From Pelagimonas sp. (GTDB lineage: Bacteria; Pseudomonadota; Alphaproteobacteria; Rhodobacterales; Rhodobacteraceae), in assembly GCA_025210455.1 (NCBI GenBank), contig JAOARQ010000057.1:62001-126000 (forward strand): a DNA stretch of 64,000 nucleotides, in the 5' to 3' direction. This document shows positions 8,234-63,586 of the stretch, piece after piece (positions within the stretch are counted from its first letter, which is position 1; every line of letters starts with the position of its first letter). The notes beneath the pieces were generated by a model. That model did not search any database. It was not told the DNA's origin and saw nothing but the letters and a program-made list of their open reading frames with translations. The position numbers and the translations under genes were made by a program.

Positions 8234-8330
8234 AATGTGCTAACCTTCCAGATAGATGCCCTTCGTTGGGGAAGGGTGTCCCACTGACGTGGCTACACGA
8301 GGCACGCCCCAAGCGGCAAGTCGCAAAACG
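8234..8330 (-). promoter_or_regulatory. serC leader RNA (regulatory 5' UTR)
   Basis: The minus-strand leader of serC matches the description of the alphaproteobacterial serC RNA motif, whose last stem covers the ribosome binding region. Here GTGTAGCCA, read from 8298 down to 8290, is an exact 9-nt complement of TGGCTACAC at 8232-8224, which overlaps the ATG and next two codons. The same leader segment can instead fold locally (CGTG-tagc-CACG). Between them lies a hairpin at 8259-8276 with arms CCCTTC and GAAGGG. Two exclusive folds suggest control of translation start. The ligand or protein that would act is unknown to me; the distal leader boundary is approximate. Confidence 0.7.
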
Positions 8331-49797: not shown

Positions 49798-49846
49798 TCA
49801 TCGCCACAACGGCTTCCTGACGTGGCGATTCGTACTTAATGGAGCA
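49798..49846 (+). promoter_or_regulatory. SAM/SAH riboswitch of metK
   Basis: The 5' leader of metK has the signature of the Rhodobacterales SAM/SAH RNA (RF01727, from memory). P1 arms TCGCCAC (49801-49807) and GTGGCGA (49822-49828) enclose a loop with AACGGCTTCCTGAC; a short linker ends in TTAATGGAGCA. The loop segment GCTTCC can pair with GGAGC at 49841-49845, which is the ribosome binding site, making the pseudoknot that shuts off translation when ligand binds. Confidence 0.88.
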
Positions 49847-56484: not shown

Positions 56485-57321
56485 CTAAAGGGTTAGCGCG
56501 GGGTGTCGATTGACATCTTTATACAAGAGGTAGCGGAAAGGCTCATTGCCGGTGGCGATACAGGCCTGCGGGCAAAAGGCGCGCAGCCACATGAAATCAC
56601 CGGGGCCAACATCGACCCAGTCTTTGTTCAACAGATAGCGCGCGGTGCCCTGCAAAACATAGAGCCCGTGTTCCATCACATGGGTCTCCGCAAAGGGGAT
56701 GCGTCCGCCGGGCAGGAAGGTGACGATATTGAAGTGCATATCATGGCGCAGATCATTTGGATCAACAAAGCGCGTTGTGCCCCATTTGCCTGTATTGGGC
56801 ATCCAGTTGATATCTGCCTCATCATCATGGGTGACAAAAGCCGTCGGCATTTCGATGTCGTGGGCAGGTTCCCAGCGCTTGCGCAGCCAATGCAGGCAGA
56901 GCGCTTGGGTGCCGTTGTTGTGGATTTGCCAAGTGCTGCCTGCGGGAACATAGGCATAGCTGCCACTGGACAGGGGATGCGCCCTGCCGTCGATTGTCAG
57001 GATGCCACTGCCCGATGTGATTAGCAGCGCCGCTTGCGCCAGAGGATCAGGTTCGGGCGTGTCTGATCCGCCTCCGGGCGCGATTTCGACTGCATATTGC
57101 GCGAATGTTTCGGCAAAGCCGGTCAGCGGGCGGGCAATGATCCAGGCGCGGGTATCGCGCCAGCCCGGCAGCAGCGAGGTTACGATATCGCGCATGGTCA
57201 GCGCTGGGATCACCGCATAGCTTTCTGTAAAGATCGCGCTGCCTTCGGGATTGACCGATTGATCAGGTAGGCCACCGGGGGGGAATGCATAGCTGCGCGG
57301 GCCAATGTTCTGGGTGCTCAT
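56485..57321 (-). CDS. allE: (S)-ureidoglycine aminohydrolase
   Basis: Bicupin protein of 278 residues of the YlbA/UGHY family, which removes ammonia from (S)-ureidoglycine to give ureidoglycolate. Two cupin halves are visible; the second has HVMEHGLYVLQGTARYLLN and the C-terminal WLRAFCPQACIATG typical of the family. The ATG overlaps the stop of the puuE-uraD gene by 4 bp. Allantoate amidohydrolase, the enzyme just before this step, is not in the window. Confidence 0.92.
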   Translation of the reverse strand: MSTQNIGPRSYAFPPGGLPDQSVNPEGSAIFTESYAVIPALTMRDIVTSLLPGWRDTRAWIIARPLTGFAETFAQYAVEIAPGGGSDTPEPDPLAQAALLITSGSGILTIDGRAHPLSSGSYAYVPAGSTWQIHNNGTQALCLHWLRKRWEPAHDIEMPTAFVTHDDEADINWMPNTGKWGTTRFVDPNDLRHDMHFNIVTFLPGGRIPFAETHVMEHGLYVLQGTARYLLNKDWVDVGPGDFMWLRAFCPQACIATGNEPFRYLLYKDVNRHPALTL

Positions 57322-58730
57322 AGCATATCCTCCAGCCGCAGGCGGGCGATGCGTTCGACCTGACGGCAGGCTTCGTCAAACTCGGTTTCAGTGTCATTCG
57401 AGATGCGGCGCTCAAAGGCTGCCAGAATGCCCGCTTTGTCAAAGTCGCGTACAGCGATGATGAAGGGGAACCCATGTTTATCCACATAGGCGCTGTTCAG
57501 TTCGGTAAACCGGTTGCGTTCACCATCTGTTAGCGCATCCAGCCCGGCGCTGGCCTGCTCTGAGGTGCTTTCAGCTGTCAGCCGTTTGGCCTGCGCCAGC
57601 TTGCCCGCCAGATCCGGGTGAGCGTGCAGCACGCCCAGCCGTTCGTCATGGCTGGCCGAGCGGAACATGCGGGCAAGCGCATTATGTAGCCCGGCAGGGC
57701 GGTCATGGGCCGGGCCAAGCTCTAGATCAAAGGCGCGCTCTGCGATCCAGGCAGAGTGTTCGAATATGCCACCAAAGCGAGAGACAAAGGTGTTGCGATC
57801 CATCTCAGAAGGGCGGTCGCGCTGTGCAGGCGGGTGGGTGCGCGCCCAATGATCCGCGATGTCGATGCGGCGCGGGATCCAGACACCGTCATGGGCCTGA
57901 ATATGCTGGATAAAGCGTTTGAGCCCCGCAATCTTGCCCGGGCGCCCAATCAGGCGGCAATGCAGACCGATGGACATCATCGCAGGCTGACCTTCGCAGC
58001 CTTCTGCATAAAGCGTATCAAAGGTATCTATCAGATATTCTTCGAAATCCTGACCCGTGACCCAACCGGGGCTGCCAGAAAAGCGCATGTCATTGGCTTC
58101 CAGCGTATAGGGGATGATCAGCTGATCGCGCCCATCAATGTTGCGCCAATAGGGCAGATCGTCGTCGTAGGTGTCTGAAATATAATCAAAAGCACCGGTT
58201 TGCGCGGTCAGCGCGACGGTGTTCATGGAACAGCGCCCCGTGTACCAGCCACGCGGGGCTTCGCCCACCACTTCGGTGTGCAGGCGGATGGCCTCGGCGA
58301 TCTGGGCGCGCTCTTCTTCTTCGGGCATGTCCCTGTGTTCGATCCACTTCAGCCCGTGACTGGCGATTTCCCAACCTGCGGATTTCATCGCCTCGACCTG
58401 TTCGGGCGATCGGGCCAGCGCGCTGGCGACGCCGTAAATAGTCAGGGGGATCTGCGCCTGTGTGAACAGCCGGTGCAGCCGCCAGAACCCGGCACGCGCG
58501 CCGTATTCATAGATCGATTCCATGTTCCAATGGCGCTGATTGGGCCAGGGGGCAGCACCGGGAATATCTGAAAGAAACCCCTCAGATCCGCCATCGCCGT
58601 GCAAGAGATTGTTTTCACCACCCTCTTCGTAGTTCAGCACAAATTGTACGGCCACTTTCGCCCCACCGGGCCACTTTGGATCCGGTCGATTTGGCCCATA
58701 GCCTGACATGTCACGCGGATAACGGTTCAT
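57318..58730 (-). CDS. Allantoinase PuuE fused to OHCU decarboxylase UraD
   Basis: Bifunctional enzyme of 470 residues. The first about 300 form the PuuE polysaccharide-deacetylase-like allantoinase (YGPNRPDPKWPGGAKVAVQF, WEIASHGLKWIEHRDMPEEE). The last about 165 form UraD (FVSRFGGIFEHSAWIAERAF, HPDLAGKLAQAKRL, NSAYVDKHGFPFIIAVR). UraD makes (S)-allantoin from OHCU, and PuuE opens it to allantoate, so one chain does two successive steps. The start at 58730 is preceded by GGGGAC; a GTG at 58748 is also open. It is divergent from uraH. Confidence 0.93.
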   Translation of the reverse strand: MNRYPRDMSGYGPNRPDPKWPGGAKVAVQFVLNYEEGGENNLLHGDGGSEGFLSDIPGAAPWPNQRHWNMESIYEYGARAGFWRLHRLFTQAQIPLTIYGVASALARSPEQVEAMKSAGWEIASHGLKWIEHRDMPEEEERAQIAEAIRLHTEVVGEAPRGWYTGRCSMNTVALTAQTGAFDYISDTYDDDLPYWRNIDGRDQLIIPYTLEANDMRFSGSPGWVTGQDFEEYLIDTFDTLYAEGCEGQPAMMSIGLHCRLIGRPGKIAGLKRFIQHIQAHDGVWIPRRIDIADHWARTHPPAQRDRPSEMDRNTFVSRFGGIFEHSAWIAERAFDLELGPAHDRPAGLHNALARMFRSASHDERLGVLHAHPDLAGKLAQAKRLTAESTSEQASAGLDALTDGERNRFTELNSAYVDKHGFPFIIAVRDFDKAGILAAFERRISNDTETEFDEACRQVERIARLRLEDML

Positions 58731-58855
58731 CTGGTCTTGTCCCCACACTGATTTTACATTTGTAATCCATGTAATCGCGAAGGATTTTCAATTATTTACA
58801 AAAGGACTTGTTGTGCCCGGATGCGGCAAGATCCTGAAAACGACAGGAGAGACAT

Positions 58856-59215
58856 ATGGCCGAAGGATATCTGACAACCCATGTACTGGATACCGCGCGC
58901 GGGTGCCCAGCTGAGGGGATTAAAATCGCGCTTTATCGGGTGAGCGGTAATTCACACAAAAAGATCGCCGAGACGGTGACCAACGCAGATGGGCGCACCG
59001 ATAGCCCGATCCTGCCCAAGGAAAAGTTCAAAGCGGGCATCTATGAACTGATTTTCTTTGCGGGTGATTATCTGCGTGCCAGCGGTCAGGCCGCGCAAGA
59101 GCCGCTGTTTCTGGATCAAATACCGATAAGATGTGGGTTGTCCGACCCTGAGGCACATTATCACGTGCCACTGTTGCTTTCGGCGCATGGCTATTCCACA
59201 TACCGGGGATCCTGA
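58856..59215 (+). CDS. uraH: 5-hydroxyisourate hydrolase (transthyretin-related)
   Basis: Transthyretin-like protein of 119 residues that hydrolyses HIU, the step before UraD. TTHVLDTARGCPAEGIKIAL opens the family, and the C-terminal tetrapeptide YRGS is the diagnostic ending. AGGAGAGACAT lies before the ATG. It is divergent from puuE-uraD and close to smpB on the same strand. Confidence 0.96.
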   Translation: MAEGYLTTHVLDTARGCPAEGIKIALYRVSGNSHKKIAETVTNADGRTDSPILPKEKFKAGIYELIFFAGDYLRASGQAAQEPLFLDQIPIRCGLSDPEAHYHVPLLLSAHGYSTYRGS

Positions 59216-59263
59216 TCCGGGGATGGTTTACTTGGGGCGGCAGAGTGATTATCTGTTCCTCCC

Positions 59264-59740
59264 ATGGCCAAGCAAAAGCAAAAATCAGATCCGAATTACA
59301 AGGTGATCGCCGAGAATCGGCGGGCGCGCTATGACTATGCCATTGATGATGATATCGAATGTGGCATTGTTCTGACCGGATCCGAGGTGAAATCCCTGCG
59401 CCAGACCTCATCGAATATCGCGGAAAGCTATGCCGCGGTCGAAGAGGGGGAACTGTGGCTGGTGAACTCTTACATTGCCCCTTACGAGAGGGCGATGTTC
59501 CCGCATAAGGAACGCCGCCGTCGCAAGCTGTTGGTGTCCAAGCGGGAACTATCGCGGCTATGGAATGAAACCCAGCGCAAGGGCATGACCCTTGTGCCGA
59601 TGGTTTTGTATTTCAATCACAAGGGGATCGCGAAGATCAAACTTGGGATCGCCAAAGGTAAGAAAAACCACGACAAACGCGAAACCGAGGCCAAGCGCGA
59701 CTGGGGACGCCAGAAGCAGCGTCTGCTGAAGCAGGGCTAA
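59264..59740 (+). CDS. smpB: SsrA-binding protein SmpB
   Basis: tmRNA-binding protein of 158 residues. [20 protein letters not shown] and [20 protein letters not shown] start the beta-barrel, and a basic C-terminal tail ([20 protein letters not shown]) reaches the decoding centre. It works with tmRNA to rescue stalled ribosomes. The space after it holds a T-tailed terminator that reads on the opposite strand. Confidence 0.96.
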
Positions 59741-59784
59741 GTCACTGTCTGCAAACAGTTGTGCCCTTAATTCGGGCAGCGCGT

Positions 59785-59945
59785 AAAAAAAACCGGGGCA
59801 TGATGCCCCGGCTGCACTGATTACGCTTACCCAACCGGATAAAGCACGCTATCCTTCAACTTGTGACTGGTACCACCCAGACAAAACGTCTGATGTCACT
59901 CACCACCCACCCAGGCGGTTCAGGGCCGCCTGGCACCACTTATTC
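59785..59945 (-). ncRNA. Candidate small RNA, minus strand (boundaries approximate)
   Basis: A terminator reading leftward lies at 59811-59785: stem CCGGGG..CCCCGG followed by eight T's. No minus-strand coding gene ends there; the nearest is groEL, which has its own terminator. Upstream in the same direction come three more stems: GGATA/TATCC (59837-59854), CAGAC/GTCTG (59878-59892, enclosed by GTGAC/GTCAC) and a perfect 8-bp CCAGGCGG/CCGCCTGG (59911-59933). This is the pattern of a structured noncoding RNA about 160-220 nt long. The promoter is not clear. I do not recognise it as SRP RNA, RNase P or tmRNA. Confidence 0.5.
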
Positions 59946-60274
59946 CACGACCTTGATCCCCTCATATCCAGATGGGATGATAGGTCAGCCAAATGGATAG
60001 GTGATCAAAGGTTTCCCCATAAATCCGAGATCCAATAAACCCTGAAAGTGTTGAGAATTTCTTGCCCGCCATTGGCAAGGTATTGAAAAATATAATTGTT
60101 TTTTTGCCAACCTTGCGCGGCATTCGTGACGCTGTTGAGCTTGATTTTCCCCTGAAATGGTTAAAATCTACGGTGCAGATTAGGCGCGGTGTATTTTGGT
60201 GCAGGTGAAACAGTTTTGATTGGGGCTAGGTGGCCACGGGCATGTTGTTCGCCTGAGGCACTTGGAGAGCATTT
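59946..60274. other. Intergenic stretch upstream of the BTAD gene
   Basis: About 330 bp with no gene. It is notably AT-rich near 60080-60110 and holds an inverted repeat, TTGGCAA (60073-60079) and TTGCCAA (60104-60110), plus GCAAGGT/ACCTTGC just inside. It probably carries the promoter of the rightward regulator gene and that of the leftward RNA. Confidence 0.4.
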
Positions 60275-61846
60275 ATGCTAACGATTCAGGTATTAGGCCC
60301 GCTGCAGGTCATGCGGTCCGATGGTGTTGATCTGACGCCTAAAGGGGCGAAAAATCAGGCGCTTATTGCATTGCTGGCGACAGGCCAGGATCTTCAGCGA
60401 CCGCGTCGGTGGGTTCAGGATGTGCTGTGGTCAACCTTTGGGCCCGAACAGGCCGGGGCGAACCTGCGCCAGTCGCTTAGCCGTATTCGCGCGGCCTTGG
60501 GTGAGCACATGGATGTGCTCTTGTCTGATCGCGAAAGGCTGGGGTTTGATCCAGAAAAGGTGTCGGTCGATTTTTGGGAAACCCCGGGCAAACTGATTGA
60601 TCCCGAAGTGTTTTTACCGGGCCTTGATGCACGGGATCCTGCGTTTGAAAACTGGCTTGTCGCTGAACGGCAAGAACTGGGCAGACAATATCTGCGCATT
60701 TCCCCGGAAGGGCGGCGCGGGGTGACTTTTGCCTGCAGCCATGGGCTTGCCGAAAGCGAAGAAGAGCAGATCATCGGCGAACTGATGGCCACCCGGGTCG
60801 CAACCAATCTGACGGAACAGGTCCGTGGAACAATTGTTTCGGGGCAGTCTGATGACGCCTCGGCACCCTCGGTTGATTTCCTGATCAAGACGGATTTCCT
60901 GCCCAGTGATGCGGGCCGAAGCCTGTTCCTGAAGGTCGTGAAGCAGCAAGATCAAAAGCAGGTCCTGTCGCGGTTGCTCAAGCTGTCTCACCCCTCTGAG
61001 GCGGTTTCCCCCAGCCAGGGTGTCATGGGGCATGTCTTTGAAATTTCGGACAGTCTGCTGGGGGCACTGCCAAACGAACTGGACCATACGCGCCCCGAAC
61101 AACGGGCCACAGCGTTCTTTCGCCTTGCGTTGTACCGGATGATGACCTTCGAAACTGACGCCATGCGAGAGGCAGAGGGCCTTTTGTTGCAGGCCTATGA
61201 TACGGGCCAGAATGGCGTCTATCTTGGGTGGGCGGCGGTGCTCTGCGCGCTGCGTCAGGAATATTCAGCCGCAAAGCAGCCGCGGGATTTTTCTGAAGAG
61301 GCGTTTGATTACCTCAACCGTGCCACGGATCAGCGCAAAGAATCGCCTTTGCTGGATGTCATGACCGGGTTGGTGCGGTTGATCTTTAATCAGGAAATTG
61401 CCGCCGCGTGTGAGCTGGCCGTTCGGGCGACCGAACGCAATCCCTGCTGTGCCTTGGGTTGGATTGTACTGGCCCGCGCCAAGGCCATGGGGCAAGAGAT
61501 CACCGCGCTGGCGGCAGCGGATCGGGCCTGTGCCATGACCGGGGGCACACCTTATGAAACACTTGCGCTTTTGGTGCGATGTGATGTGGCCTTGCAGGTT
61601 GGGGCTTTTGATCAGGCCATGGCCTCTGCCGAGGCGGTGCTGATCCGTGCGCCGCTAAATCGCCCAGCCCTGCTGCGTCTGCTGTTTCTCTATCGTCATA
61701 GCGGCCGCCATACGAAAGAGGCCCGGGTTTCCGCCGTATTGAACAAAATCGCGCCGGGCATGAAACCAACCGATGTACTGGCCTCTGAGGCGGGGCTGGT
61801 AAAACTTATGCTGCCACTTGGCGTGCTGGATTCCCTGCTGGTCTGA
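60275..61846 (+). CDS. BTAD/SARP-like transcriptional regulator with TPR-type C-terminus
   Basis: Protein of 523 residues. The first about 95 form an OmpR-type winged helix of the SARP/BTAD group (MLTIQVLGPLQVMRSDGV, KNQALIALLATG, ANLRQSLSRIRAALG). No NB-ARC ATPase follows. Residues about 280-523 contain helical repeats (FRLALYRMMTFETDAMREAE, AACELAVRATERNPCCALGW, DQAMASAEAVLIRAPLNRPA) that look TPR-like. Similar proteins in Rhodobacteraceae regulate unknown targets. GGAGAGC precedes the ATG. It is a lone gene, convergent with groEL. Confidence 0.8.
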   Translation: MLTIQVLGPLQVMRSDGVDLTPKGAKNQALIALLATGQDLQRPRRWVQDVLWSTFGPEQAGANLRQSLSRIRAALGEHMDVLLSDRERLGFDPEKVSVDFWETPGKLIDPEVFLPGLDARDPAFENWLVAERQELGRQYLRISPEGRRGVTFACSHGLAESEEEQIIGELMATRVATNLTEQVRGTIVSGQSDDASAPSVDFLIKTDFLPSDAGRSLFLKVVKQQDQKQVLSRLLKLSHPSEAVSPSQGVMGHVFEISDSLLGALPNELDHTRPEQRATAFFRLALYRMMTFETDAMREAEGLLLQAYDTGQNGVYLGWAAVLCALRQEYSAAKQPRDFSEEAFDYLNRATDQRKESPLLDVMTGLVRLIFNQEIAAACELAVRATERNPCCALGWIVLARAKAMGQEITALAAADRACAMTGGTPYETLALLVRCDVALQVGAFDQAMASAEAVLIRAPLNRPALLRLLFLYRHSGRHTKEARVSAVLNKIAPGMKPTDVLASEAGLVKLMLPLGVLDSLLV

Positions 61847-61877
61847 GCGAGTCTCTCAGAACCGATCCCCCAAAAGA

Positions 61878-61904
61878 AAAGGGCCTGCGATTGGCAGGCC
61901 CTTT
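61878..61904. terminator. Terminator of groEL (shared hairpin)
   Basis: AAAGGGCCTGC and GCAGGCCCTTT form an 11-bp stem (61878-61904) with loop GATTG. On the minus strand it is followed by TCTTTTG. It lies 24 bp past the groEL stop and 30 bp past the BTAD stop. Confidence 0.8.
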
Positions 61905-61927
61905 CCCGAATAACTGCGTGAGGCAGA

Positions 61928-63586
<1,659 letters not shown>

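Follow-up and report, generated by a model that had tools for sequence, protein, structure and literature searches.

A strong intrinsic terminator with no gene to serve lies on the minus strand between smpB and a SARP/AfsR-like gene of Pelagimonas sp. Small RNAs are the commonest explanation for orphan terminators, and we tentatively regard a young, lineage-specific untranslated RNA, which would be transcribed from the minus strand of this smpB-SARP region, as the single most likely explanation here. If made, the RNA would add a recently arisen, unannotated small RNA to the junction between smpB, whose product acts in trans-translation, and the chaperonin operon, and would be ordinary by itself.

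An orphan terminator faces smpB

Positions are given within the window, i.e., the whole 64,000-nt stretch of Pelagimonas sp. DNA that was analysed (Table 1). Read on the minus strand from 59811 to 59785, the terminator comprises a perfect GC-rich hairpin, CCGGGGCA-TCA-TGCCCCGG, with eight Watson-Crick pairs (ten when G-U pairs are counted), followed by a run of eight T's, TTTTTTTT. It ranked at the top of eight terminator-like sites in a scan of positions 57000-62000, and its folding z is -4.3. None of 5,000 dinucleotide shuffles of the intergenic region (59741-60274) produced its equal, defined as at least eight Watson-Crick pairs, at least six GC and T6. This intrinsic terminator is real and beyond chance, and the strong minus-strand hairpin with eight T's described in a sequence-only reading of this DNA was thereby confirmed. 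When the same positions are read on the plus strand, no T run follows the hairpin; therefore, the terminator is one-directional and is not the intrinsic terminator of smpB. A U-rich stretch preceding a terminator hairpin favours Hfq binding, and none was found ahead of this hairpin on reading the sequence.

The intergenic region spans 534 bp, from the smpB stop codon (59740) to the start of the SARP-like gene (60275), both genes being encoded on the plus strand. The terminator points toward smpB and ends 45 bp short of its 3' end. A whole-window scan returned six perfect intergenic terminators, five of which sit 20-28 bp past a stop codon of the same strand, and found no same-strand stop codon within 2.1 kb of the terminator described here. 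The closest minus-strand gene is groEL (61928-63568), which lies 2.1 kb away and has a terminator of its own, in agreement with the earlier statement that the hairpin has no gene to serve. As a crude yardstick, a similar scan of 80 smpB loci (654 kb) yielded 11 orphans among 61 perfect terminators, a count that rests on crude gene calls and may in part consist of artefacts. Orphan terminators are uncommon, yet not extraordinary.

In this genome, the SARP/AfsR-like gene sits between smpB and groESL. Its protein has no Pfam domain above cut-off, and two more homologues are found elsewhere in the same genome.

Table 1. Features of the smpB-SARP-groESL region and of the Cognatishimia loci
Feature	Position	Strand	Basis or remark
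smpB, faced by the orphan terminator	59264-59740	+	protein 92% identical in the sister species
Intrinsic terminator, CCGGGGCA-TCA-TGCCCCGG + T8	59785-59811	-	terminator scan, shuffles, folding z
5-bp stem GGATA/TATCC	59837-59854	-	at chance level when taken alone
Imperfect stem-loop enclosing the 5-bp stem CAGAC/GTCTG (59878-59892)	59864-59912	-	MFE and centroid structures
8-bp perfect stem CCAGGCGG/CCGCCTGG, loop of 7	59911-59933	-	stem search, shuffles
Weak promoter-like site TTGGCA-17-TTCAAT	60082-60110	-	score at the 90th percentile of random 550-nt stretches
Weak promoter-like site TTGATT-15-TAAAAT	60141-60167	+	possible promoter of the SARP-like gene
SARP/AfsR-like gene, 523 aa	60275-61846	+	named from reading the sequence, no family match
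Terminator of groEL, 11 pairs	61878-61904	-	whole-window terminator scan
Cognatishimia sRNA-like gene	L030:4482-4566, L034:4488-4576, L040:4485-4573, L042:4490-4577	-	conserved stretch behind smpB

Stems and promoter-like sites upstream of the terminator

The sequence-only reading had also reported at least three more perfect stems upstream in the same direction, and one 8-bp and two 5-bp stems were found there. With the terminator excluded, an 8-bp stem appeared in 31 of 3,000 shuffles of the upstream part (~1%), and three 5-bp stems in 68 of 3,000 (~2%), a modest excess over chance that is suggestive and not strong. Folding of the upstream part without the terminator gives a z of about -2.0 for the minus and -2.5 for the plus strand; since these values are similar, the stems alone do not favour a minus-strand RNA.

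The best minus-strand promoter-like site, TTGGCA-17-TTCAAT, lies where the region is richest in AT, and an RNA started from it would begin near 60075 and measure ~290 nt. A consensus promoter scan reported no minus-strand promoter and did not pick up this site, and the match is mediocre and unconvincing.

Conservation and gene order

At curated cut-offs, the intergenic region has no match in Rfam. At E values up to 10, only terminator-driven alignments emerged, the best being to SorX (RF02784, singlet oxygen resistance RNA X; E 0.06). SorX shares with the candidate a GC-rich terminator hairpin followed by a T run, yet the match scores 18.8 bits against a cut-off of 46.6 bits, and the alignment is essentially the terminator, with the 5' hairpin missing. 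Known RNA elements elsewhere in the window are a serC leader (8235-8286, minus strand) and a SAM/SAH riboswitch (49798-49846, plus strand).

Homologous DNA for the region was not found in 60 relatives, 394 family genomes, plasmids and phages, nor in the sister species, the only other genome of the genus searched; weak DNA matches in other genomes were short and due to chance. A phage or plasmid origin was likewise dismissed, as no match was obtained, and nothing suggestive of repeats or mobile-element ends was found around the insert.

The sister species keeps the upstream gene order (a homologue of 57318-58748, then uraH and smpB), after which comes a GNAT-like gene, named from reading the sequence, while groEL is located on another contig. 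In the relatives examined, the best homologues of the SARP-like gene occupy places away from smpB. Given that smpB of the sister species adjoins another gene and that its groEL lies elsewhere, the smpB-SARP-groESL junction is lineage-specific. Conservation of the stems had been put forward as a test of the small RNA; with the junction absent from the sister species and the region devoid of relatives, the claim is weakened, although a young small RNA predicts the same outcome.

Origin of the terminator

We envisage that RNA polymerase would start in the AT-rich stretch (about 60050-60170) that is common to the promoter of the SARP-like gene, head toward smpB on the minus strand, passing several stem-loops, and end at the T8 terminator, 45 bp from the 3' end of smpB. 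The resulting RNA, whose existence, start and any function we infer, would be about 150-290 nt long and overlaps neither flanking coding sequence as proposed. If it acts at all, base pairing in trans would be the likeliest mode. Such an RNA is favoured by the strong orphan terminator, by the AT-rich, divergent character of the region, in which weak promoter-like sites point both ways, and by minus-strand peptides without relatives. Against it stand the mediocre promoter, the lack of conservation and of an Rfam match, and folding that, beyond the terminator, exceeds chance only modestly and no more on the minus strand than on the plus. The earlier proposal of a new small RNA is partly supported: its terminator is real and orphan, but a convincing promoter, an Rfam match and conservation were not found. 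Orphan terminators count as an accepted mark of small RNAs in Sinorhizobium meliloti, where 11 of 12 multi-criteria candidates were confirmed by Northern blots (PMC2573895). Those RNAs share with the Pelagimonas candidate an intergenic position and a strong Rho-independent terminator that serves no gene; however, nearly all of them are conserved in related species and were seen experimentally, whereas the Pelagimonas candidate is an unconserved prediction from sequence.

The terminator might instead serve as an insulator, halting by-product minus-strand transcription, which might come from groEL read-through or from a SARP promoter that works in both directions, before this runs antisense into smpB, in which case the RNA itself would be functionless. 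We consider this somewhat unlikely, yet a serious rival. The terminator does face smpB, with 45 bp between it and the stop codon, and groESL, which is normally highly expressed, points toward it from 2.1 kb off; a lineage-specific junction that sets groESL against smpB would favour such a stop. Nevertheless, groEL already ends in an 11-pair terminator, and of the 80 smpB loci only four, all from Cognatishimia, show a clear terminator of the minus strand just past the gene, where it lies inside a conserved stretch. That the terminator is the relic of a minus-strand gene, lost in the rearrangement that brought smpB, the SARP-like gene and groESL together, is improbable, though likewise a serious rival: its stem has stayed perfect, the T run is intact and the minus-frame peptides resemble no protein found, even though the junction is missing from the sister species, which implies a rearrangement in one of the two lineages. 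Hardly to be expected is a messenger for a small protein, for example from the 53-aa frame at 60123-59962 or the 27-aa frame at 59939-59856. These frames are open and the terminator lies downstream of them, but no Pfam match was obtained, a search of 149 family genomes, viral contigs and plasmids gave no relative for the longest minus-strand frame, and a good ribosome-binding site is absent on reading the sequence. No relatives were found for minus-strand frames of 87 codons or fewer, the 87-aa frame giving no matches.

An sRNA-like gene behind smpB in Cognatishimia

When the 80 smpB loci were scanned for minus-strand terminators behind the gene, four Cognatishimia loci proved to carry one, 19-63 bp from smpB. 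Common to these four species are 85-90 nt that contain a strictly invariant core, TACGAGTGCCAGGGAGTTAYGAGT; this stretch constitutes a putative sRNA-like gene with a folding z of -3.9 to -4.6 and, in at least two of the four, a predicted 5' hairpin. The terminator stem is 100% paired and displays two compensatory changes; with four sequences, this covariation was reached by 26 of 500 shuffles and is suggestive only. The gene matched no Rfam family, and its covariance model (R1) matched, among the loci searched, those four alone and not the window. The core was not found in 394 family genomes, and the few weak model matches there all lacked it, so that the gene is apparently narrow in distribution. 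It is absent behind smpB in a fifth Cognatishimia genome (L057).

The Cognatishimia gene and the Pelagimonas candidate have in common their slot, their direction and a terminator facing smpB, but the 85-90-nt gene with its core has no sequence match in the Pelagimonas window, and the two are unrelated. The former shows the slot behind smpB to be open to an sRNA-like gene, which lends a Pelagimonas small RNA some credibility, by analogy only. On the sequence evidence, the Cognatishimia gene is the firmer lead, a better-supported new sRNA candidate family than the Pelagimonas finding. As a long shot, small RNAs specific to single lineages could have arisen repeatedly in Rhodobacteraceae at the spot immediately behind smpB and facing it, among them the conserved Cognatishimia gene and the unrelated Pelagimonas one, and the latter might act on smpB through transcription interference.

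Other candidate identities

Several other identities were considered for the Pelagimonas region and rejected. A 34-aa minus-strand frame (SPIHLADL...GGW), taken as a possible protein remnant, gave chance matches only, the best of which (in L150) lies outside the real coding frame. ARAGORN found no tRNA or tmRNA for a tRNA-like reading of 59911-59940, and the suggestive short DNA matches of this segment were due to chance. The idea of a divergent RNA that accompanies SARP-like genes was discarded as well, as the homologues have no comparable set of upstream hairpins. The region has no match to 6S RNA (RF00013), the weak best match of the genome being on another contig (C41).

With respect to 6S RNA itself, no match at E 0.001 was obtained in either genome of the genus, whereas all nine other relatives searched gave one. 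Each of the two genomes holds one 18-bit match (G000:C41:52888-53005 and G001:C26:5758-5875) to the same model positions, 18-170, and these are possibly diverged 6S RNA.
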